Origin: Saccoglossus kowalevskii
Taxonomy: Eukaryota; Hemichordata; Enteropneusta; Harrimaniidae
Reading direction: 5' to 3'
Length of the DNA: 39,598 nucleotides
Assembly (NCBI RefSeq): GCF_000003605.2
Contig: NW_003120919.1
Coordinates: 384,976-424,573, forward strand
The position numbers and the translations under genes are program-made. This document shows positions 1,732 to 34,488 of this stretch, piece by piece; the stretch's first letter is position 1, and each line of letters opens with the position of its first letter. Below the pieces are notes generated by a model that did not search any database, was not told the DNA's origin, and saw only the letters and a program-made list of their open reading frames with translations.

Positions 1732-4144
1732 ATTCACGATATAACCAACCAATCACTGTGTAGTAGCATTCACGATATGACCAACGAATCACTGTTTAGT
1801 AGCATTCATGATATGACCAACCAATCACTGTTTAGTAGCATTCATGATATGACCAACCAATCACCGTGTAATAGTATTAACGATATGACCAACCAATCAC
1901 TGTGCAGTAGCATTCGTAATATGACTAACCAATCACTGTGTAGTAGCATTCATGTTATGACTAACCAATCACTGTGTAGTAGCATTCATAATATGACCAA
2001 CCAATCACTGTTTAGTAGTATTCACGATATACCCAACCAATCACTGTGAGGTAGCATTCACGATATGACCAACCATATACTTTGTAGTAACATTCACGAT
2101 ATGACCACCCAACCAACCACTGTGTATTAGCATTCGAGATATTACCAACCAATTACTTGAGGTAGCATTCGTAATATGACTAACCAATTACTGTTTAGTA
2201 GCATTCATGTTATGACCAACCAATCACTGTGTAGTAGCATTCGTAGTATGACTAACCAATCACTGTGTAGTAGCATTCATAATATGACCAACCAATCACT
2301 GTTTAGTAGTATTCACGATATACCCAACCAATCACTGTGAGGTAGCATTCACGATATGACCAACCATATACTTTGTAGTAACATTCACGATATGACCACC
2401 CAACCAACCACTGTGTATTAGCATTCGCGATATTACCAACCAATTACTTGAGGTAGCATTCACGATATGACCAACCAATTACTGTGTAGTAACATTCACG
2501 GTATGACCAACCGACCAACCACTGTGTATTAGCATTCGCGATATTACCAACCAATCACTGTTTAGTAGCATTCACGATATGACCAACCAATCACTGTTAG
2601 GCAGCGTCCACGATATGACCAACCAATTACTGTTTGGTAGCATTCATGATATGACTAACCAATCACTGTGTAGTAGCATTCGTAGTATGACTAACCAATC
2701 ACTGTGTAGTAGCATTCATGATATGACTAACCAATCACTATGTAGTAGCATTCACGATATGACTAACCAATCACTGTGTAGTAGCATTCATAATATGACC
2801 AACCAATCACTGTTTAGTAGTATTCACGATATACCCAACCAATCACTGTGAGGTAGCATTCACGATATGACCAACCATATACTTTGTAGTAACATTCACG
2901 ATATGACCACCCAACCAACCACTGTGTATTAGCATTCGCGATATTACCAACCAATTACTTGAGGTAGCATTCACGATATGACCAACCAATTACTGTGTAG
3001 TAACATTCACGGTATGACCAACCGACCAACCACTGTGTATTAGCATTCGCGATATTACCAACCAATCACTGTTAGGCAGCGTCCACGATATGACCAACCA
3101 ATTACTGTTTGGTAGCATTCATGATATGATCAACCAATCACTGTGTAGTAGTATTCACGATATGACCAATCAATCACTGTGTGGTAGTATTCACGATATA
3201 CCCAACCAATCACTGTGATGTAGCATTCACGATATGGCCAACCAATCACTGTGAGATAGCATTCACGATATGACCAACCATATACTTTGTAGTAACATTC
3301 ACGATATGACCATCCAACCAACCACTGTGTATTAGCATTCGCGATATTACCAACCAATTACTTGAGGTAGCATTCACGATATGACCAACCAATTACTGTG
3401 TAGTAACATTCACGGTATGACCAACCAACCAACCATAGTGTATTAGCATTCGCAATATTACCAACCAATCACTGTTTAGTAGCATTCATGTTATGACCAA
3501 CCAATCACTGTGTAGTAGAATTCACAATATAACCAACCAAACACTGTGAGGTAGCATTCACGATATGACCAACCAATCACTGTTAGGTAGTGTTCACGAT
3601 ATGACCAACCAATTACTGTTTAGTAGCATTCATGTTATGACCAACCAATCACTGTGTAGTAGAATTCACAATATAACCAACCAAACACTGTGAGGTAGCA
3701 TTCACGATATGACCAACCAATCACTGTTAGGTAGTGTTCACGATATGACCAACCAATTACTGTTTGGTAGCATTCATGATATGACCAACCAATCACTGTG
3801 TAGTAGTATTCACGATATGACCAACCAATCACTGTTTAGTAGCATTCACGATATTACCAACCAATCACTGTGTAGTAGCATTCACGATATGACTAACCAA
3901 TCACTGTTTAGTAGCATTCATGATATGACCAACCAATCACCGTGTAATAGTATTCACGATATGACCAACCAATCACTGTGTAGTAGCATTCATAATATGA
4001 CCAACCAATCACTGTGCAGTAGCATTCGTAATATGACTAACCAATCACTGTGTAGTAGCATTCGTAATATGACTAACCAATCACTGTGTAGTAGCATTCA
4101 CGAAATAACCAACCAATCACTGTTTAGTAGCATTCATGATATGA

Positions 4145-4149
4145 CCAAC
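4145..4149. repeat. Left target-site duplication of the solo LTR (CCAAC)
   Basis: CCAAC immediately precedes the TGTCGC start of the LTR and is identical to the 5 bases after its end. Confidence 0.85.
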
Positions 4150-4377: not shown

Positions 4378-4652
4378 GGGGAGTTGTTCAGCACTGAGAT
4401 CAGATCGGAGATCTCGTTGAATTGTATTAGAGTTTAAGTATCTAGTTATTGGAGTAGTGGAGTTTTACCGCGTTATTGTACTTGATGTTTGCAGAGTATA
4501 ATAATACCGGTACCAGTTGAAACCTCATCTGTTGGCTCCGTGTTCGTATTTTATCATCGCCGCCAGGGAAGTCTTTTTGTTACTGTTGCCATTTTGGTAT
4601 TTGAACCATCACACCTGTACGGTATTACGGTAATATTACGTTGCGTGTGACA

Positions 4653-4657
4653 CCAAC
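4653..4657. repeat. Right target-site duplication of the solo LTR (CCAAC)
   Basis: CCAAC immediately follows the GTGACA end of the LTR; the array resumes in register with CAATCACCGTG. Confidence 0.85.
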
Positions 4658-5294
4658 CAATCACCGTGTAATAGTATTCACGATAAGACTAACCAATCAC
4701 TGTGTAGTAGCATTCGTAATATGACTAACCAATCACTGTGTAGTAGCATTCATAATATGACCAACCAATCACTGTGTAGTAGTGTTCACGATATGACCAA
4801 CCAATCACTGTTTAGTAGCATTCACGATATTACCAACCAATCACTGTGTAGTTATAGCATTCACGATATGACCAACCAATCACTGTTTAGTAGCATTCAT
4901 GATATGACCAACCAATCACCGTGTAATAGTATTCACGATATGACCAACCAATCACTGTGTAGTAGCATTCGTATTATGACTAACCAATCACTGTGTAGTA
5001 GCATTCACGATATAACCAACCAATCACTGTTTAGTAGCATTCATGATATGACCAACCAATCACCGTGTAATAGTATTAACGATATGACCAACCAATCACT
5101 GTATAATAGCATTCGTAATGATGTCTAACCAATCACTGTTAGGTAGCGTTCACGATATGACCAACCAATCACTGTGTAGTAGTATTCACAATATAACCAA
5201 CCAAACACTGTGAGGTAGCATTCATGATATGACCAACCAATCACTGTGTAGTAGCATTCACGATATGACCAACCAATCACTGTGAGGTAGCATA

Positions 5295-7608
5295 CACTAG
5301 TTGTAAATTGTTAAGGGAATATTTATCATATCTATAACAGTTATTAAGCTCAGGTTAAATTTACACAGGTGTATCACCCAAAATTTACTATAGGAGTATG
5401 TATGAAAACTATATGTTCACACCGAGATCTTTAAACCTCAACTGTGCGTGACATTCCCATATTTGTATTGCCGACACGTACACTCGCGTTATTGAGATAA
5501 GACATTTCGATATGCATATATATTGTATTTAATAATTATATCTAACAATGATTGTGATTTCCATGTTTTTCTTTTAATCAATAGTGCTAGTTATTCAGAA
5601 CCATGTTTCATTTTTAGAATGAATTCCTACAGACATTTTTAATAAATGTTAATAAATTCTACTTTAATAGAAATCCATTGCAATGTGCTTTCATGCAGGA
5701 AAAAAACACACACATTCGTACGTAAAAGGAATCGTTTGTATCAAAATATCACGTCTCAAGTTAAATGTTTCCAATTCATTGGTATCGAATTTAATCAACA
5801 GGTGAATTCTAATTAAAAACTGCAGTTTCACTTTATTGCAATATTAGCAAAATTACACATTTTGTATGCGACTGAAAATAATGTAATATAAAAAGAGACA
5901 AAACAATCCTTGTTTATCGGACCTACTCGTAATTGGCGGATTATATTTTGGAATTATTTCTTCAACTGAGCATAAATTTAATTGACCGTTGCTGGCGCTG
6001 CGAAATTCTCGCAAACGGTGATAGTTTTCTGTATGTATTCTCAACCATGTTTATAGAGATTGTTCACTTTTGCGTTTTGCACATGGTTTGAAGGACTTTA
6101 AATATGATTATAATTGTTCATTTTTGGGGGGTAAAAAACTGGATTTTGTTATTTGTTTAGACTAAATTAGAACGGTGACACTTGCTCTATAAAGTGAACG
6201 CGTAACTTGAAAGGTTGTTTATATGTCAGGGAAGATTTCATTTTACTATTTGCCCCCGGCTTTTTGGTCCCCGGTTCATTTGCCCATGTATTTTGCCCTC
6301 ATTTTGTTAAGATTTATAAAATTAAATAAATATTTTGAAATACTAAAATATTATTGGAAGTTTTAATAACGTAGTAACTCTGAGCCTGAGTGTCGATCAG
6401 AAAATTCCGAGCTTTACTCTGAGTGTGACCTGAGCATTTTTTGTGAAACAGAAGTGAGTATATTCTAGTGTTTGTACAAGTTGCTTACGTTTATATTTAT
6501 TACTAAAAATAAAATATCTCAAATTACCATGGATTGGAAATGTTTCTATGCGCTCTAAAAACCTAATAAAATAGACCATTTTGAAATGTTCTAATACAGC
6601 CAGTCCTAGTATTATATTTTACACTCGTAAAATCCTACCTACAAGATTCTGTGTCTACCGCACACAAAAATACGACTATTGATGAATTCATGTGTCGGTG
6701 TGATACCAGATACGTATGTAGCTAGAATTAAACAACAGGTTCCATCAGCAATTCATCAAAAATACAACACTATCAATATACTATATTTGTAAAATTACTA
6801 AAACCACAAAACAATGTGACTCGGCAATCGGATTACTCTTACTTAACAATCAAGATTGCGCTAAGGACTACAATGACAATTGTTTTCGTGTACTTGGCAA
6901 TGCTCGTTCATTTAGGGACTTTAGAAGTGGTTTACATAAAAACAAAGAAACCCATGCTCCGTGTAGACAAAAGGAATATGTTTACCATTCACTACGGCTA
7001 ATGTCAAACATAGTGTTAATCGGTCGAGAGCATGCCGGGAAGACCCCAGGGCCGAAATACGCATGTCCGGAGATAGAATTCTGACTGACTGTAATTGGCA
7101 GTATATCGTGTGCGTTGGTAATTTTTCGTTGAAAAAATTGTGGTTAGCAAGTAGTCAACTGTGTCGTTCATCGTTATTTTACTACCAGCGTGCTGATCAA
7201 GAGACTAAAATTACATTGGGCGAGACTTGGTTTAATTTTTTTGGCTGAGATTAATCAAAATGTCCCATATCACATATTTGACTGTATCATGAATGCTATA
7301 CAATGTATTTTGTCGAACTACACATTCAGTAGCTTTTGAAAACACGTGAATTTGAAATAAACAATGATGTGACGAAAGTTATTACCACATTGTCACTATG
7401 CAAAAAGTGGAGCGAAGTTTTCTAATGATAAGGGGACGCGAGTCTCGATGATTTTTACTAATTATACAGTTAATCGCAATGGCCAACTCGATACGAAATT
7501 TATTCTCCTGATTGTCATTTACAATGTGTACATTTATGTGTTAACAAATGTATTATACCCATTATTGTTACAATATTGCACAATTGTGTGCTTGATTGGA
7601 ATGCTACC
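5295..7608. other. Intergenic, no confident gene
   Basis: Mostly AT-rich. Between about 6797 and 7084 (+) an ATG-less frame stays open for more than 90 codons (beginning CDSAIGLLLLNNQD) and overlaps a 61-codon ATG frame at 7063-7248. Neither has a recognisable domain or clear splice sites. The minus-strand frame at 5853-6044 is also unrecognised. Confidence 0.5.
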
Positions 7609-9913: not shown

Positions 9914-11060
9914 TTACACTGGGACAATCTGACCACATTGTTTACATCTATAAGTAGGTGCTCTACTTAATGCATCTGCATTGCCATGACGTTTGCCTGG
10001 CCTATGGACAATGGTGAAATCAAATTGTTGCAATAATTCAATCCAGCTAGCCAGCTGACTCTGATTTTTAAATCGCAATAACCATGTTAAAGAAGCATGA
10101 TCTGTCTGAAGTGTAGACTTTCTTCCTAACAAATAATGACGATAGTATTTGACATAATTTACAACTGCCAGCAACTCCCTTCTGGTCACACAATATCTGC
10201 GCTCTGCAGCTGACAAAGCCCATTTTGGCATTGTGTTGCCCACAGTCCCTCTGTGATAGAGGGACTGTGCGTTGCCCAATAAAAAAAAACGTTCTTCTTT
10301 GTCAACCAATTAAAGAACGAGACTCTGTCACAGAACTGGGTATAGGCCAATGCGTATTATATCCACCTTTCCTGTATCTGTCTCAACTCCATATTCTGCG
10401 ATTCTGTGACTCATAAATTCAACAGCACATATTTGTTAGGTTTTAGTTTTTACCCAGCCGATTAAAAATCAATTCTAATCACTTCAACTCCTCCTAAACT
10501 GTTCTGGCGAATACAATGTCATCCAGATACAAGATTAAGAATTTCCATGACAAACCACTGGAACAACGTTTCATAGTTCTTTCAAAAGTGTTTACACCAA
10601 TGGAAGCACCTTCCACTTGTATAACCCTTATATACAAAAGGCAGCGTATAGTTCAAACTCTTACTCTAGTTCAATTTGCCAATATCCTGATTGTAAATCT
10701 AACGTAGAAAACCATTTTGACTGTGAGTGACTCCAAAGCATTATCTATCCTTTGGAGAGGAAAGCTGTCCTGGACTGTAACTGAATTTATTTTACATGTA
10801 CATAGTCTATGCACAACCTTTGCGTCCCATCTTTTTTTTGCACCAAGATTACTGGGGAGACCCAAGGACAAATAGACCTCTCAATTAATCCCCTATCCAA
10901 GAGATCTTTTGTCTGTCTCTCTATCTCATTGTGTTTCCATATTAGAGTATGGTATGGGACTTGTCGTACTGGTTTTCGTACTACTATCTCGTGTTTTATT
11001 TGATCCACCTTCCCTAAATCATCCAAACGAAAGACACCAGTAGTTTTGACCAACAAATCA
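9914..11060 (-). pseudogene. Degraded Ty3/gypsy-type pol fragment: reverse transcriptase and RNase H
   Basis: Read on the minus strand from 11056, a pre-RT segment is followed by reverse-transcriptase motifs spread over different frames: VSPVILVQKKDGTQRLCIDY, then DSFPLQRIDNALESL, then WFSTLDLQSGYWQIELE near 10690, then the catalytic YLDD near 10530. An internal TAG and several frameshifts separate them. A linker with LTKKNV follows near 10290. The RNase H part then runs ALSAAERRYCVTRRELLAVV to HRPGKRHGNADALSR (about 9940-10220). The N-terminal half of RNase H, with its first catalytic Asp, is missing, and a perfect hairpin (10241-10269) sits at that junction. No integrase, gag, LTR or primer-binding site was found in place. 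Non-functional. Confidence 0.92.
10241..10269. repeat. Hairpin 2, perfect 12-bp stem, at the RNase H deletion junction
   Basis: CACAGTCCCTCT (10241-10252) and AGAGGGACTGTG (10258-10269) are perfect reverse complements around a 5-nt loop. It lies between the polyprotein linker and the surviving C-terminal half of RNase H, and shares its arms with the hairpin at 8971-9001. Confidence 0.85.
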
Positions 11061-11728
11061 ACAAACTATCGCTAATTTCACCTTGCTTTGGCTACCAGCA
11101 ACCAAAGCCTCGCTGCCAACGGGAATGACAGAATCATTTTCAGTAACACTGAAACATGGTGCGCCATTAGTTTTTTGTGACATCGAATAACAAACAATTG
11201 CAACAAGCCGGTAGGTTGATTGGTGATTTACAACGCTAAACAAATCAGCTGTTGTCATGGTAATGATAGAGCACACACTCAAGCAAATTAGATATGAGAT
11301 ATGTCCGAGATTTTGAATCAAAGATTTTTATAAGGATATATTATGCCTGACGCTACGACCATCATATCAAATTTTCGCCCGTTGTCATGGCAGCAGCTAT
11401 TTTTAAAAAAATTTTCCACCTTTGTAGAGTGCAGGTGTACCTGCCTGTCAAGTTCTACCAATACTTCACTGGCGAAACGTTATTCCAAATTCAAAGTAAA
11501 ATTTTCCGGCAATGAAAAAACAACAAAAATGTTTACAACATTTTGGTTCACACTCTAGCTGAGTAGAATGAGATATGTCCACGGGTATTAATCTGAGTTT
11601 GTAAGAGAAGATACATTGGTGCGAAGGTACTAAAAAATCAATTTTGTATTTGCCATGGCAACGATGAGCCAATTTTTTTTCCAGATTTGAACACAATTAG
11701 CCGGGCCAAAAACAATCACAGAAGATTA
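11061..11728. other. Non-coding stretch between the pol fragment and the 66-bp array
   Basis: Only short frames without motifs. It may include upstream remains of the pol element, but nothing recognisable as protease or gag. Confidence 0.5.
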
Positions 11729-12652
11729 GTAGATTTACAACATTAGCCAAGTACAGTTATACAAAGGTCCGTCAGTGCATAGATGGCTAAGGTTGTAGAT
11801 TTACAAAATGAGTCAAGTACAGTTATACAAAGGTACGTCAGTGCATAGATGGCTAAGGTTGTAGATTTACAAAATGAGCCAAGTACAGTTATACAAAGGT
11901 ACGTCAGTGCATAGATGGCTAAGGTTGTAGATTTACAAAATGAGTCAAGTACAGTTATACAAAGGTACGTCAGTGCATAGATGGCTAAGGTTGTAGATTT
12001 ACAAAATGAGCCAAGTACAGTTATACAAAGGTACGTCAGTGCACAGATGGCTAAGGTTGTAGATTTACAAAATGAGCCAAGTACAGTTATTCAAAGGTAC
12101 GTCAGTGCACAGATGGCTAAGGCTGTAGATTTACAACATTAGCTAAGTACAGTTATACAAAGGTACGTCAGTGCATAGATGGCTAAGGTTGTAGAGTTAC
12201 AAAATGAGCCAAGTACAGTTATACAAAGGTACGTCAGTGCATAGATGACTAAGACTGTAGATTTACAAAATGAGTCAAGTACAGTTATACAAAGGTACGT
12301 CAGTGCATAGATGGCTAAGGCTGTAGATTTACAAAATGAGCCAAGTACAGTTATACAAAGGTACGTCAGTGCATAGATGGCTAAGGTTGTAGATTTACAA
12401 AATGAGCCAAGTACAGTTATACAAAGGTACGTCAGTGCATAGATGGCTAAGGTTGTAGATTTACAAAATGAGCCAAGTACAGTTATATAAAGGTACGTCA
12501 GCGAATAGATGGCTAAGGTTGTAGATTTACAAAATGAGCCAAGTACAGTTATACAAAGGTACGTCAGTGCATAGATGGCTAAGGCTGTAGATTTACAGCG
12601 TGAGTCAATTACTGTTATATAAAGAACATGAATGCAATGGTGGCTATATATT
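11729..12652. repeat. 66-bp minisatellite, about 14 units
   Basis: Units begin GTAGATTTACAAAATGAGYC and continue AAGTACAGTTATACAAAGGT, ACGTCAGTGCATAGATGGCT, AAGGTT. Start points fall at 11729, 11795, 11861, 11927 and every 66 bp through 12587, where the last unit decays. Almost every unit carries TACGTCAG (half-CRE core TGACGTA on the reverse strand). As 66 is divisible by three, a minus-strand frame stays open for 186 codons (22-residue repeats), which I read as a by-product. Confidence 0.95.
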
Positions 12653-13193
12653 TGCTGCGTGGATGCATGTATTATACATTGGAACGCACCATTGATCATG
12701 GTTACACTTGGTAATAATGCAATTGTTTAGAAAGAAATATGTAATAAACGAAACATACTCTATATTTCAGTGCATATAATTTCAAAATCGGGGTAGTTAA
12801 CAATTTTTCTTTTTCAGTCGCAATGTCTTGTCAATATAATTCGGTTTCCATTGAAATGATTGTGTGTTCTGTGTTGTGATTAAAACCAGTTGATTTTTTT
12901 TTTAAATTTGTTAAAATTAATAAAAGTGCTTACACCGTTGTTGGAAAGACGTATTGCAATGCTATAAAATATTTAAAATACGGTTAAAGTCGGCAATAAT
13001 TCTCATTAAACAATGTAATAGTATATGTAATGCTTTATTGTATAAACTATAATAAATAACATGAATTGTATCTGTTATCGATGTATGCAAATAGTAACGC
13101 CATTCTTCTTATCCCTCATTACATTCTCAGTCAATGCTATAAATCATCACAGCTCGTTATGGGCAACCAATCGCTGGAAAGACAAAAAAAACA
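12653..13193. other. Intergenic, AT-rich
   Basis: No supported gene. It lies downstream of the secreted-peptide gene on the minus strand. Confidence 0.5.
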
Positions 13194-13203
13194 TTTATTT
13201 ATT
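13194..13203 (-). terminator. Polyadenylation signals (AATAAATAAA) for the secreted-peptide gene
   Basis: TTTATTTATT on the plus strand gives two overlapping AATAAA hexamers on the minus strand, about 185 nt downstream of the stop codon at 13385. This is a normal 3' UTR length. Use of the site is inferred. Confidence 0.5.
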
Positions 13204-13384
13204 CATTCATTAATTTTGTCCATACTTACTAGTATATGCCAAGGAAGCTGCGACTTAATATAACCCGGTTACTATTAGTAGCGCCCGCTTTCAATGTAAA
13301 TTGATAAAACGAAAGAAGTTCAATAAGTCAATATTTTTTGGATCTGCAGTCGCCTGCCAACATGGTAAACATATTAAAACTGAG

Positions 13385-15711
13385 TTAACACTGACCACCG
13401 CATGGCGGACAATTGCTGTTGCTATGGCAATTGTAACAGCCACAACCTGCTGGAATCGGTCCACCGCCGTACATTTTAATTGCAATGTCAGAGTCAGTGC
13501 CATCTAAGTCAAGGTTAATATTCATCTTGTACGCGACATCCCCTACACAATATAATAGATGACGAATCATTAGAACAATACCACCACCACAAAAAACAAC
13601 AACAACAATAACCACTCCGAAAATTATCCGATAATCGCAAATTCAGACAAATGCTTTGTCCAAGATTTACACAGATGTAACCCGCCTAATTTCACTGGCG
13701 CTCTCCGGCAAAGAGTTGTTTGTTATCACTGTTGCTGGTGATTGTCAGACACGGTCAGATAGGTTACTATTATTTAAGTAGATGTGATGAACCCAGATAA
13801 AGATGCAGGTAGAGTGAGTATACGAATTACATGAGTGGACGAAACAACGAGCAATCATCAACATAAGATCAACACTGTGTTAAATATTAAACATCAGATC
13901 AACACTACGCGAACAACTCCAGTCGTCAGTCTTATACGGGATTCGAGCACAGACCTTTCAGTATGCTACACTAATATGCAAATTGGGTATTTTCGACGAT
14001 TAGCCACGTGGTTCCCAGCACACAGTCTTTCAAATGACATTATACGGATCTGCCATGGGGAAAAGGCTCACAAACATTCAAACGAATTAATTCAGAGAAA
14101 GTGAAATAGATGGAACTCCAAAGTTACCACTTTTAAATTGGATCCATAGAACAAATAAAACTAGAGTGAGTATAAATTGGAGAAACAAAACATCAATCAA
14201 CAACCGTATGTGAAAAAATCGAATCCAAAATCCTCAATGTGCCAGACTAGTAAATCAATCGATGGCGACATAGTGTTGATCATAGCTTTAATTTTAATAA
14301 CTGAATTTCCAATCAAATCAAACGTGTTTTGATTGACTTAGTGAGCTTCAATAACTGAATCTCCAATCAAATTAAATGTGTGTTGATGGACCTAGTGTTG
14401 ATCATAGCTTTAATTTTAAAAACTGCATCTCCAATCAAATTAAATGTGTGTTGATTGACCTGGTGTTGATCATAGCTTTAATTTCAATAACTGAAACAAT
14501 GACATTTATGTTTATTGACCAAGTATTGATCACAGCTTCAATAACTGAATATCCAAAAAAAATCAAATGTGTATTTATTGACATAGTGTTGCTCATAGCC
14601 TCGATATAGGAAAGTGTTGATTGGTCTAGTGCTACTTTTAGCTTTAATTGTGTTTTTCATTTCAATACATTACGTGATGGGCAGCAATATATTAGCAGAA
14701 ACGTCAGATATTAATGAAGAGTGCGTAAGCAGTGGAAGATACCATGGTAACAAGGCTAACACAAATTAAATTTAGTCAATAGGAAAAGTTTGTTAAGAAG
14801 ATTGTCATTATGACTATTTTGCCATCAATTGGATGTATAGTTGGGTGTGTTTTGTTTTGTTTTATCATTTGGTTCAATCTTGTTGTTTCATGTCAGTGTC
14901 TACTTCAATACATCCCATCCAATGTCGTCTGTTTGTATGTTATTACACAACACGTTATGTGTTTGTATATGATTTTTAATTTGCCCTAGAATTTGGCAGG
15001 GGAGGTTGTAACCTTTTGCAGTGAGAACCAATGTGACTGACCTGCCCACGGGGTTCTAAAGGTTGTTTTTTTCTAAATTACATGTTCAATAAATGTTAGG
15101 GTTTTTGTTTTATTTTACCTGTGAATCAAAAATCACTGTAAACCCTGTATTTTTACTGGCATTAAATTTCACAATTGTGATATTGTGTGCATTTCACATG
15201 GTTTTAAATTCACAAATTTACCATAGTATAATGAGTTGTATTGTAATTTTGACATATTCTTGTGAATTTAATCCAACGAAGTTTACACCCAGTGAATAAA
15301 TAATATATTCACAGTAATCATAATCACGATTGTACAAATTTGAAGCATGCCCTCAAGCGACATGACGCTCCAGTGTTTTTAGTGTCTCTAAGAGACGCCG
15401 TTCGATTGGTCAATGACCTATATCATGCTTTAAAGCTTTACCATCAACAAAACAGGGTTGTCTATTGCACAACATTTTTTTAACAACCGGTAACGTCATT
15501 TTTTACGTCACGGAATAGTTGTGTCGCTAGAGGGCGATTTATATGAACATGTATTAATTATGATTGAAACAAAGCAGTAAATATGTTGACGCCTTATAAT
15601 TATTGATGAACCCAAAAAAAACACCTCCCGCGCTTTGACAATCGAGGCGTACTTACCTAAAGTTCGTCCAGTCAAAGCACATACGAAAGCTACAACCATT
15701 AACAATCTCAT
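13385..15711 (-). CDS. Two-exon gene for a 70-residue secreted cysteine-rich peptide
   Basis: Exon 1 (15711 to 15657, 55 nt) encodes MRLLMVVAFVCALTGRTL, a typical signal peptide, and ends at the consensus donor TTTAG|GTAAGTAC. Exon 2 (13542 to 13385, 158 nt) starts after the acceptor TTATATTGTGTAG. Both junctions are phase 1, and joining them gives a continuous 71-codon frame including the TAA. The mature part, probably from about residue 20, begins DVAYKMNINLDLDGTDSDIA, is acidic, then has a GGGPIP hinge and ends in a compact six-Cys tail (Cys 52, 54, 57, 63, 66, 70; pattern CxCx2Cx5Cx2Cx3C, including CPPC). An exon boundary at the signal-peptide end is common for secreted peptides. I recognise no family; CxC and CxxC spacing allows disulfides or metal binding. 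TTTTTTATAG|AGACC just before the ATG could be an acceptor, implying a further 5' UTR exon. Confidence 0.72.
14274..14650. repeat. Degenerate tandem repeat, unit about 55-68 bp, six copies
   Basis: Copies share TGTTGATCATAGCTTTAATT, AATAACTGAATCTCCAATCAAA and ATGTGTGTTGATTGAC. Clear starts lie at 14274, 14396 and 14464, with shortened or decayed copies from about 14341, 14523 and 14587. It lies wholly inside the intron of the secreted-peptide gene. Confidence 0.85.
15110..15300. repeat. Dispersed repeat, copy 1 (CpG-decayed)
   Basis: Shares TTTTTACTGGC, TTAATTTCAC or TAAATTTCAC, AATGAGTTRTATTG, ACATATTC and TTCACAGTA, in the same order, with 26110-26280. Several TTCACAAATTT and TTGTGAATTT pieces look like TTCGCGAATTT after CpG loss. 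Ends are not defined. Confidence 0.6.
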
Positions 15712-15740
15712 GATGGTCTCTATAAAAAATAATTATGCTG

Positions 15741-16440
15741 CCGTCATCGGTTTTGTTGTACGTACGAATGAGTAGTAGTGTTTGAATCTGTGCGTTACAG
15801 AACACATGGGGGAAGCTGACGTCATCGGTTTTGTTTTACGTACGAATGAGTAGTATGTTTGAATCTGTGCGTTACAGAACACATGGGGGAAGCTGACGTC
15901 ATCGGTTTTGTTTTACGTACGAATGAGTAGTAGTGTTTGAATCTGTGCGTTACAGAACACATGGGGGAAGCTGGCGTCATCGGTTTTGTTTTACGTACGA
16001 ATGAGTAGTAGTGTTTGAATCTGTGCGTTACAGAACACATGGGGGAAGCTGACGTCATCGGTTTTGTTTTACGTACGAATGAGTAGTAGTGTTTGAATCT
16101 GTGCGTTACAGAACACATGGGGGAAGCTGACGTCATCGGTTTTGTTGTACGTACGAATGAGTAGTAGTGAGTGAACCTGTGCGTTACAGAAAACATGGGG
16201 GAAGCTGACGTCATCGGTTTTGTTGTACGTACGAATGAGTAGTAGTGAGTGAACCCGTGCGTTACAGAAAACATAGGGGAAGCTGACGTCATCGGTTTTG
16301 TTGTACGTACGAATGAGTAGTAGTGAGTGAACCCGTGCGTTACAGAAAACATGGGGGAAGCTGACGTCATCTGTTTTGTTGTACGTACGAATGAGTAGTA
16401 GTGAGTGAACCCGTGCGTTGCAGAAAACATGTTGCATGGC
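15741..16440. repeat. 78-bp minisatellite, nine units, at the 5' end of the secreted-peptide gene
   Basis: The motif TCATCGGTTTTGTT starts at 15744, 15822, 15899, 15977, 16055, 16133, 16211, 16289 and (as TCATCTG) 16367, giving an exact 78-bp period with a single 1-bp deletion. Two sub-types exist: units nearer the gene carry TGTTTGAATCTGTGCG, distal ones GAGTGAACCYGTGCG. The first unit starts about 30 bases upstream of the ATG at 15711. Two minus-strand frames stay open (26-residue repeats) because 78 is divisible by three. Confidence 0.95.
15817..16369. promoter_or_regulatory. Array of seven perfect CRE sites (TGACGTCA) at 78-bp spacing
   Basis: TGACGTCA occurs at 15817, 15894, 16050, 16128, 16206, 16284 and 16362. 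The unit at 15972 has TGGCGTCA, and the unit nearest the gene has CCGTCA only. The 8-bp palindrome is the full consensus for CREB/ATF bZIP factors. TACGTACGAATGAGTAG in each unit adds a second palindrome and an AP-1-like half site. Position upstream of the signal-peptide exon suggests a regulatory role; this is inferred. Confidence 0.6.
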
Positions 16441-33104: not shown

Positions 33105-34169
33105 TTATATAATAGTTTCTATTACACGGGGTTTCTTTCCTGTTCTATTTCGTTGATTTAGCTCTATTTCGTTGGTAGATTTTTTTTTCATAAAGGGTAG
33201 GTGATTTTTAAACTGGTTAGAGGTTAAGGTGTATATTATAGGATTTACCATGCTGCCCAAACACATAAATGATACACAGAAACTAACTACATGTTCGTTT
33301 CTATATTTATCAATATTGACTATAACTGAACCATAAAATGCAATTGGCAAATATGATATTATAAACATAGAAATTACTGAAGCGACTACCTTCAATATAG
33401 CAAGGTCCTTTGGTTTGCGTTGTCCTTGCTGGCTATTGCCGCTTGCCTTCATAGCTCGTTGAAATGATTTCTCATGCCGATTGATCACGTGGTAGATGTA
33501 GGCATATGACACAACCATTATACACAGTGATAGAAATATTATGAATATGCCACTAATTGTTGCGGTTTTCACTTCCCGACTTACGGGCTCTAAATTACAC
33601 GAGAGGTCGTCCCCGGCCCATGCCTTCCATGTAGCATATCCAAACCCTGTAGTCCAACTGACAGCGATCGAGCAGATGGTTATCATCCTCTTGGTGCTTG
33701 GTGTACACTTACCTGCTACACCTATCGCCCTCGAAACACTGATAGCCCCTAAAGAAACTACAGTTGTGATAGTTGAGGAGTAAAAAATAAATATTTGACT
33801 TGCACAAAACGGACCTGATATGTTGATTTCCCCATGTAGAAGACTTTTCAATATTAAACCAAACCGCAGCGATGATGTTAAGATACAAACTAGCATGTCT
33901 GCTACAGCTAACGATACTAGTTGAATGTTCGCAGGGGTTCTTAGTTTCTTGTTATTGTAGACAATCTTACACACCTGAATATTACCGGAAGTTCCAATCA
34001 ACGCAACGAAAACGAGCATACACGCTGATATTATATCGAAAAATAGATCCCATGGTTTCACACTAATACTGTCGAATACTTCTTCAGTTATATTCGTTGC
34101 ATCGATGTCAAAATATGTTTCAGTTGAATATGTTTCGTTTTCGACAAACACATTTGTCAAATTCGCCAT
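33105..34169 (-). CDS. Class A (rhodopsin-like) G-protein-coupled receptor, intronless
   Basis: The 354-residue plasma-membrane receptor has seven hydrophobic segments at about 42-70, 80-108, 121-148, 161-184, 204-229, 255-284 and 292-316. Family landmarks: N63 in GTSGN (1.50), D91 in LAVAD (2.50), C122 and C191 for the TM3-ECL2 disulfide, W172 (4.50), P275 (6.50) and NPIIY at 309-313. Deviations: the DRY motif is S146-R147-A148, the TM5 proline is absent, and the CWxP position reads SYLP. The extracellular N-terminus (1-41) has glycosylation sequons at N3, N11 and N26; the C-tail is basic. Length is normal for the class. By eye it is nearest the orphan/melatonin-like/moody-Tre1 type receptors, but ligand and subfamily cannot be given. 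The ATG is the first in frame after an in-frame TAG at 34256-34254; a TATA box lies at 34489-34496. Confidence 0.95.
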   Translation of the reverse strand: MANLTNVFVENETYSTETYFDIDATNITEEVFDSISVKPWDLFFDIISACMLVFVALIGTSGNIQVCKIVYNNKKLRTPANIQLVSLAVADMLVCILTSSLRFGLILKSLLHGEINISGPFCASQIFIFYSSTITTVVSLGAISVSRAIGVAGKCTPSTKRMITICSIAVSWTTGFGYATWKAWAGDDLSCNLEPVSREVKTATISGIFIIFLSLCIMVVSYAYIYHVINRHEKSFQRAMKASGNSQQGQRKPKDLAILKVVASVISMFIISYLPIAFYGSVIVNIDKYRNEHVVSFCVSFMCLGSMVNPIIYTLTSNQFKNHLPFMKKKSTNEIELNQRNRTGKKPRVIETII

Positions 34170-34253: not shown

Positions 34254-34313
34254 CTATTGAGTTGAATTCGTTGCACGGACATCTAGGGAAGTTTCAGTCG
34301 AATTTGCTGCCAT
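34254..34313 (-). CDS. Short upstream ORF in frame with the GPCR (19 codons)
   Basis: ATG 34313 opens MAANSTETSLDVRATNSTQ, stopped by TAG at 34256-34254. The frame then stays open through FLDTFVTNSITALGSIATSS into the receptor ATG. The STET motif repeats in the uORF (NSTETS), in the linker (SSTETF) and in the receptor N-terminus (YSTETY). This suggests an extended Ser/Thr-rich N-terminus cut by a nonsense change, or a genuine uORF restraining translation. Confidence 0.5.
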   Translation of the reverse strand: MAANSTETSLDVRATNSTQ

Positions 34314-34488
34314 GCTCGATGAATCTATTAGACAGAGGTCGGAGAAGTCACAGTCCAATTTCTTACGGTACGATGATATCGTGAATACAAGAGTTGATAG
34401 AGTAGAAGTCAACGCTAATGAAGAAGACACCGACGATGTTATCTGTTTGATGCTGTATCTATACCTCTAATGGTGACTATGAAGTGAC

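Follow-up and report, generated by a model that had tools for sequence, protein, structure and literature searches.

A candidate family of small, acidic, cysteine-rich secreted peptides in Saccoglossus kowalevskii with a shared 55-nt signal exon

Orphan cysteine-rich peptides are common in invertebrates. Among the described groups with which such chains may be compared, inhibitor cystine knots follow the consensus C-x(3-7)-C-x(3-6)-C-x(0-5)-C-x(1-4)-C-x(4-13)-C, metallothioneins have no signal peptide, and the zinc-binding region of DnaJ carries four CxxCxGxG repeats. As for gene structure, one published study describes, for secreted proteins, phase-1 introns that interrupt Gly proto-splice codons close to where the signal peptide is cleaved (PMC1626468).

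We analyzed a 39,598-nt stretch of the S. kowalevskii genome (hereafter, the window), in which an earlier note, made from the sequence alone, had proposed a gene for a secreted peptide with a knot-like cysteine module. The gene shares with disulfide-rich secreted peptides a short signal exon, a compact cysteine-rich chain, membership in a small multigene family and a phase-1 intron that splits a Gly codon where cleavage is predicted. All four paralogs that we describe below have a short signal exon that ends in phase 1 within a Gly codon close to the cleavage site. In contrast to that class, the window family is acidic, has no Pfam match, and is best conserved in its N-terminal part rather than in its cysteine module.

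Six cysteines in a small secreted chain recall the inhibitor cystine knot, but the window peptide begins CxCx2C, with one residue between its first two cysteines where the knot needs about three to seven; we rejected the assignment on spacing, which does not support the description of the module as "knot-like". With metallothioneins the peptide shares CxC and CxxC pairs and a high cysteine density; it differs from them in its signal peptide, its tyrosines and its total of only six cysteines, and membership is further opposed by the absence of any Pfam match and by a signal-like exon in four of four genes. The DnaJ zinc-binding region likewise has an alternating-residue stretch followed by CxxC pairs, yet the window peptide has the CYNC and CPPC pairs only, without the four repeats. 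The single NCBIfam match to the window's exon 2, the one segment submitted to that collection, was to DnaJ and at chance level (E 0.098, with 11.7 bits where the cut-off is 338), and with the repeats missing we rejected a DnaJ-like zinc module.

The four full-length members matched no Pfam family at E up to 10, and PDB sequence searches yielded chance-level matches (best E 0.072, 4.2 and 0.51) or, for one query, none. A literature text search with peptide sequence strings and topics found nothing tied to the family, a result that does not establish absence from print. No relatives were found in viral contigs or prokaryote genomes, as expected for an animal gene.

Gene model and paralogs

The earlier note had placed a first exon at 15711-15657, with a GTAAGT donor and a phase-1 junction to a second exon beginning at 13542, all of which can be read directly in the sequence. 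The features of this part of the gene are as follows, a slash marking each junction.

15712..15719, minus strand: probable end of a 5'UTR exon, ..TTTTTTATAG/AGACCATC/ATG, with AG before the ATG as in four of four paralogs
15657..15711, minus strand: exon 1 of 55 nt, with the start codon and the signal-peptide sequence MRLLMVVAFVCALTGRTL/G; ends in phase 1 at TAG/GTAAGT, read directly
13543..15656, minus strand: intron 1; 2,114 nt, phase 1, inside a Gly codon
13396..13542, minus strand: exon 2 with its end corrected by inference, DVAYKMNINLDLDGTDSDIAIKMYGGGPIPAGCGCYNCHSNSNCPPCG, nearly all of the mature peptide
13385..13395, minus strand: remainder of the exon 2 proposed earlier (last residues and in-frame TAA); probably part of intron 2, possibly the true end

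Splice sites were scored and ranked with a generic matrix. By this measure the exon 1 donor is matched by few of the window's 5,151 GT sites (four, itself included, score equally high), and at 13542 the exon 2 acceptor, ...TTGTGTAG/GGG, scores at a level reached by 105 of 3,626 AG sites. The spliced frame of exons 1 and 2 is open and gives 70 residues when read to the stop at 13385, beginning with a signal peptide that was judged by hydropathy alone. We looked for comparable two-exon models, defined by a signal-like first exon, a good donor and acceptor, and at least 4, 5 or 6 cysteines in the last 25 residues: none occurred in 150 simulated third-order Markov windows, and the real window held one locus, with two alternative ATGs. 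The claim that single-frame ORF calling misses the gene holds in part. Exon 2 lies inside an 85-aa stop-to-stop frame with an in-frame ATG, and a caller could report that frame, but with the wrong N-terminus.

Relatives of the gene were sought in its own genome (572 Mb in 4,830 contigs). Used as a DNA query, the exon-2 region matched nothing beyond its own locus, but a protein search with exon 2 identified three further loci: two copies on contig C2792, at 47730 (52% identity, E 1.8e-5) and 54823 (51%, E 1.4e-4), and one on C1350, at 62331 (36%, E 3.8e-5). The same four loci came back when a C2792 copy or the C1350 copy served as the query. The family therefore has at least four members, a lower bound because the search scores best candidates only. 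A possible further copy near L013:4582, with the string RLNLNLDL, was rejected, its frame having no cysteine module and being broken by stops.

Upstream of exon 2, each paralog has a signal-like exon, reading MKFLYLLVLFCVFEERVN/G and MKFLCLLVLFCVLGERVN/G in the C2792 copies and MKLLCLLIAFVAFVERAQ/G in C1350. In all four genes this exon is exactly 55 nt long and ends in phase 1, and in the three paralogs intron 1 has the same place and phase, with distances from the donor of 1,157, 826 and 325 nt. When we scanned 232,206 strand-bases (the window, its two flanks and both paralog regions, on both strands), 55-nt phase-1 signal-like exons were found at exactly the four family members and nowhere else, under thresholds set afterwards to admit the C1350 exon, whose weak donor (2.0) had caused a first, stricter scan to miss it. 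An AG lies 4-8 nt 5' of the ATG in four of four genes, and it is therefore likely that, as suggested earlier, a 5'UTR exon joins the gene immediately ahead of its start codon; the window's own putative acceptor is weak, with 390 of 3,626 AG sites scoring equally high.

The two C2792 copies are 80% alike in exon 1, 94% in exon 2 and 79% in exon 3 with its 3'UTR. They are also alike outside the exons, in a 126-nt stretch of intron 1 (77%) and in an upstream block (67%). These upstream blocks, at C2792:45713-46282 and C2792:52691-53267, have a TATA-like box, together with a CRE in copy 2 and a CRE-like site in copy 1, and are likely the paralogs' promoters.

Comparison among the paralogs also bears on selection. 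Set against copy 1, the window gene shows 0.79 synonymous differences per site, a saturated value, and 0.36 non-synonymous, and between copies 1 and 2 dN/dS is 0.38. Conservation of the reading frame, which had been set beforehand as a test of the gene, thus holds among the paralogs. These results also decide against the view that splice-like signals have combined by chance in non-coding DNA. That view can draw on codon usage, which gives no support for coding: in a test trained on the GPCR frame described below, both another frame and the reverse strand outscored the real one, whose score was also reached by 23.5% of 672 stop-free stretches. Yet three paralogs with the same architecture, and a frame kept in spite of saturated synonymous change, already contradict a chance origin, which we consider extremely improbable. 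The three paralogs, with their identical 55-nt length of signal exon, lend strong support to the proposal that a gene interrupted by a phase-1 intron encodes a secreted, cysteine-rich peptide here, and we regard the gene in the window as almost certainly real.

The C-terminal end

The chain had been thought to close with the residues GGQC at a clean stop. That end is probably misplaced, for a third exon follows in two of the paralogs and an acceptor that would fit such an exon lies at 13173 in the window, which suggests two further features.

13174..13395, minus strand: probable intron 2, GGTG/GTCAGT ... TTTTTTTTGTCTTTCCAG; 222 nt, phase 1, with position and phase like those of intron 2 in the paralogs
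13034..13173, minus strand: probable exon 3, completing an Ala codon and adding I-G-C-P-stop (stop at 13159-13157), followed by 3'UTR and AATAAA at 13039-13034

Because two paralogs continue over a phase-1 intron and the window has this acceptor, the reading that ends at the 13385 stop probably runs on into intron 2 for its final residues. With exon 3 the ending changes from GGQC-stop to GAIGCP-stop (CPPC-G-[A]-I-G-C-P-stop), for a precursor of 72 aa, a mature chain of 53 aa and a cysteine spacing of CxCx2Cx5Cx2Cx4C. The donor of intron 2, which starts at 13395, is modest (rank 117 of 5,151 in the window); the acceptor at 13173 ranks 3 of 3,626. Of 51 acceptors scoring at least 3.0 on both strands of the window, it alone yields x-x-Cys with a stop no more than three codons further on.

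In both C2792 copies exon 2 ends in phase 1 at GTTCTTT/GTACGT, a weak donor (-2.2 in the generic matrix), and a conserved block downstream begins at an acceptor and gives [C]NKC-stop or [C]GTC-stop, then a 3'UTR with AATAAA. A candidate exon 3 in C1350 reads [C]YSC-SF-stop, followed by AATAAA, and was chosen by its x-x-Cys ending among eight acceptors within 4 kb. At the DNA level, exon 3 of the window and that of copy 1 are no more alike than shuffled sequences, 875 of 1,000 of which reach the observed score (433 of 500 in an earlier test); in that earlier test the read-through sequence scored 17 and the exon-3 sequence 16. The corresponding counts of shuffles are 119 of 1,000 for the window and C1350, 112 of 1,000 for C1350 and copy 1, and 2 of 1,000 for C1350 and copy 2. 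As the DNA of the window's exon 3 does not resemble that of the other members significantly, the case for exon 3 rests on the rank of its splice site, its phase, its place and the x-x-Cys-stop ending.

It may instead be that the two-exon model is correct, with a 70-aa product ending in GGQC-stop and the exon at 13173 either absent or confined to the 3'UTR in the window member. An in-frame stop directly after a cysteine, which this model has, is also found in two paralogs, and an alternative donor that would begin intron 2 at 13229 ranks slightly above the preferred one (95 of 5,151) and would put the 13173 exon wholly in the 3'UTR. However, the alternative intron would be only 56 nt long, and it is the preferred donor, together with the acceptor at 13173, that matches the paralogs in the phase and place of intron 2 and in the x-x-Cys-stop ending. 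We therefore think the two-exon model doubtful and a third coding exon in the window gene probable. For the whole of our main reading, namely a real gene under selection, a family of four paralogs and a coding region of three exons, with no mechanism attached, we estimate a probability of about 0.7.

The upstream array and other features of the window

Immediately upstream of the gene lies a tandem array.

15737..16431, no strand assigned: minisatellite with a 78-bp unit repeated 8.9 times; it includes the perfect CRE palindrome TGACGTCA seven times and stops about 25 nt upstream of the ATG

Within the limits of the search tool, a DNA search for the 78-bp minisatellite placed it at this locus only in the genome. 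Among 116,103 bases examined, the palindrome TGACGTCA itself was counted 16 times, with nine of these sites inside the window, and it is also present in the third-exon sequences of C1350 and of both C2792 copies; it is thus not rare around these genes. That the array has a role in cAMP-responsive control of the window gene is a guess.

Other long minisatellites, with units of 36 and 66 bp, lie at 1732-4149, 4652-5297 and 11729-12624. Each is overlapped by an ORF of more than 120 aa, and these ORFs could mislead ORF callers. Pieces resembling a retrotransposon polymerase occupy about 9914-11065 on the minus strand, with an RNase H-like Pfam match at 9914-10309 (E 8e-18) and the rest judged by eye. 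The window also includes a single-exon frame for a rhodopsin-type GPCR (33105-34169, minus strand, 354 aa; Pfam 7tm_1, E 2.4e-28). Just upstream of it, the frame at 34257-34466 on the same strand, MAANSTETSLDVRATNSTQ, looks by eye like the N-terminus of the receptor and is perhaps a duplicated piece. A Pfam scan of one reading frame from each of the two flanking stretches returned no families.

Elsewhere in the genome, the mitochondrial contig C4830 (L026) has COX1, identified by Pfam match, on the strand opposite to frames that by eye resemble COX2 and ND1, an arrangement that seems unusual. Its COX1 reads TGA as Trp (nine codons) and has no AGA or AGG, which fits an animal mitochondrion.

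Proposed role and its alternatives

The N-terminal stretch of the mature chain is better conserved than the cysteine part. All ten residues of YKMNINLDLD agree between the window peptide and the C2792 copies, and between the window and copy 1 its DNA has silent changes. Mature positions 3-13 alternate between hydrophobic and polar residues to a degree reached by 17, 5, 3 and 89 of 2,000 shuffles in the four members, a pattern that suits a beta strand. AlphaFold, given exon 2 alone, returned a model without secondary structure and too poor to read (mean pLDDT 58.9).

In the full-length alignment M1, L4, R16, G19, N26, N28, L29, L31, D32, D35, P47, A50 and five cysteines are invariant. Six cysteines line up in the alignment of the exon-2 frames, where the ends of the window and C1350 sequences include read-through letters. 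If exon 3 is accepted, the module of the window member and that of C1350 have six cysteines each, with the second CxxC missing in C1350; the mature chains of the C2792 copies have nine, eight in the module and one outside it. The disulfide pattern is therefore not fixed in the family, and in the C2792 copies one cysteine would be unpaired or would pair between chains. The mature chains are acidic in every member, with net charges of -3, -3, -5 and -3, counted with the GGQC ending for the window and without exon 3 for C1350, neither of which changes the number of charged residues.

From these features we can outline how the peptide may be made and used. A 5'UTR exon would be spliced to the 55-nt signal-peptide exon, with the phase-1 intron 1 interrupting the codon of Gly19, where signal peptidase is predicted to cut; exon 2 would supply nearly all of the mature chain, and the probable short exon 3 its last residues, including the sixth cysteine. 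The chain would enter the secretory pathway and lose its signal peptide after Gly19, and disulfides among its six C-terminal cysteines would make a small cap that resists proteases. A surface for contact with a partner could then be formed by the amphipathic, conserved strand YKMNINLDLD together with a turn and another strand, DIAIKMY. On this outline the conserved N-terminal strand would make the contact that matters and the cysteine module would be a stabilizing cap that has varied. The product would work outside the cell, as a ligand or in a structural capacity, and would be neither an enzyme nor a cationic peptide that acts on membranes.

An acidic, disulfide-capped secreted peptide with a ligand or a structural or matrix role is thus a mechanism that we consider possible though short of probable. 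What the sequences show is the exon architecture, the paralogy, a conserved frame, conserved cysteines and acidity; expression, cleavage, disulfides, strands and partner are inferred. Stated for the family as a whole, our reading is tentative: an undescribed secreted family combining an acidic N-terminal beta-strand module, N-[IV]-N-L-[DN]-L-D-x-x-D, with a C-terminal module of six to eight cysteines, the last of them from its own tiny exon, acting as an extracellular ligand or scaffold and, in the window member, perhaps controlled by the CRE array.

Two other functions would suit the same gene model. A host-defense role, as a disulfide-stabilized antimicrobial or immune effector, agrees with a small, secreted, cysteine-rich product from a multigene family of few members, in which separate exons encode the signal and the mature part, and mussel defense peptides have similar gene layouts. 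The acidic charge of all four mature chains (-3 to -5) nevertheless argues against a classical cationic antimicrobial peptide, none of the four full-length chains has a Pfam match, and the better conservation of the N-terminal stretch than of the cysteine part would be unlike the rapid evolution of effectors; we judge a defense role unlikely. Still less can be said for a secreted metal binder that would chelate zinc or copper through its CxC and CxxC pairs. The spacing of CxC, CYNC and CPPC, with six cysteines in about 20 residues, is suggestive, as is the weak resemblance to DnaJ, but that match fell far below its cut-off and the C1350 member is without the second CxxC. Moreover, secretory chains are normally oxidized, and metal binding in such a compartment is for that reason very unlikely. 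We accordingly retain the extracellular ligand or structural peptide as the preferred, though tentative, function.

Tiny, multi-exon secreted peptides are among the genes most easily lost in annotation, and tiny secreted peptides include hormones, venom components and defense molecules. Here, a gene model read by eye and then tested against the whole genome led to a family whose members, four or more in number, share a 55-nt signal exon. By itself the finding overturns nothing; it is a solid orphan-family find, and it supplies a searchable signature and exact junctions.
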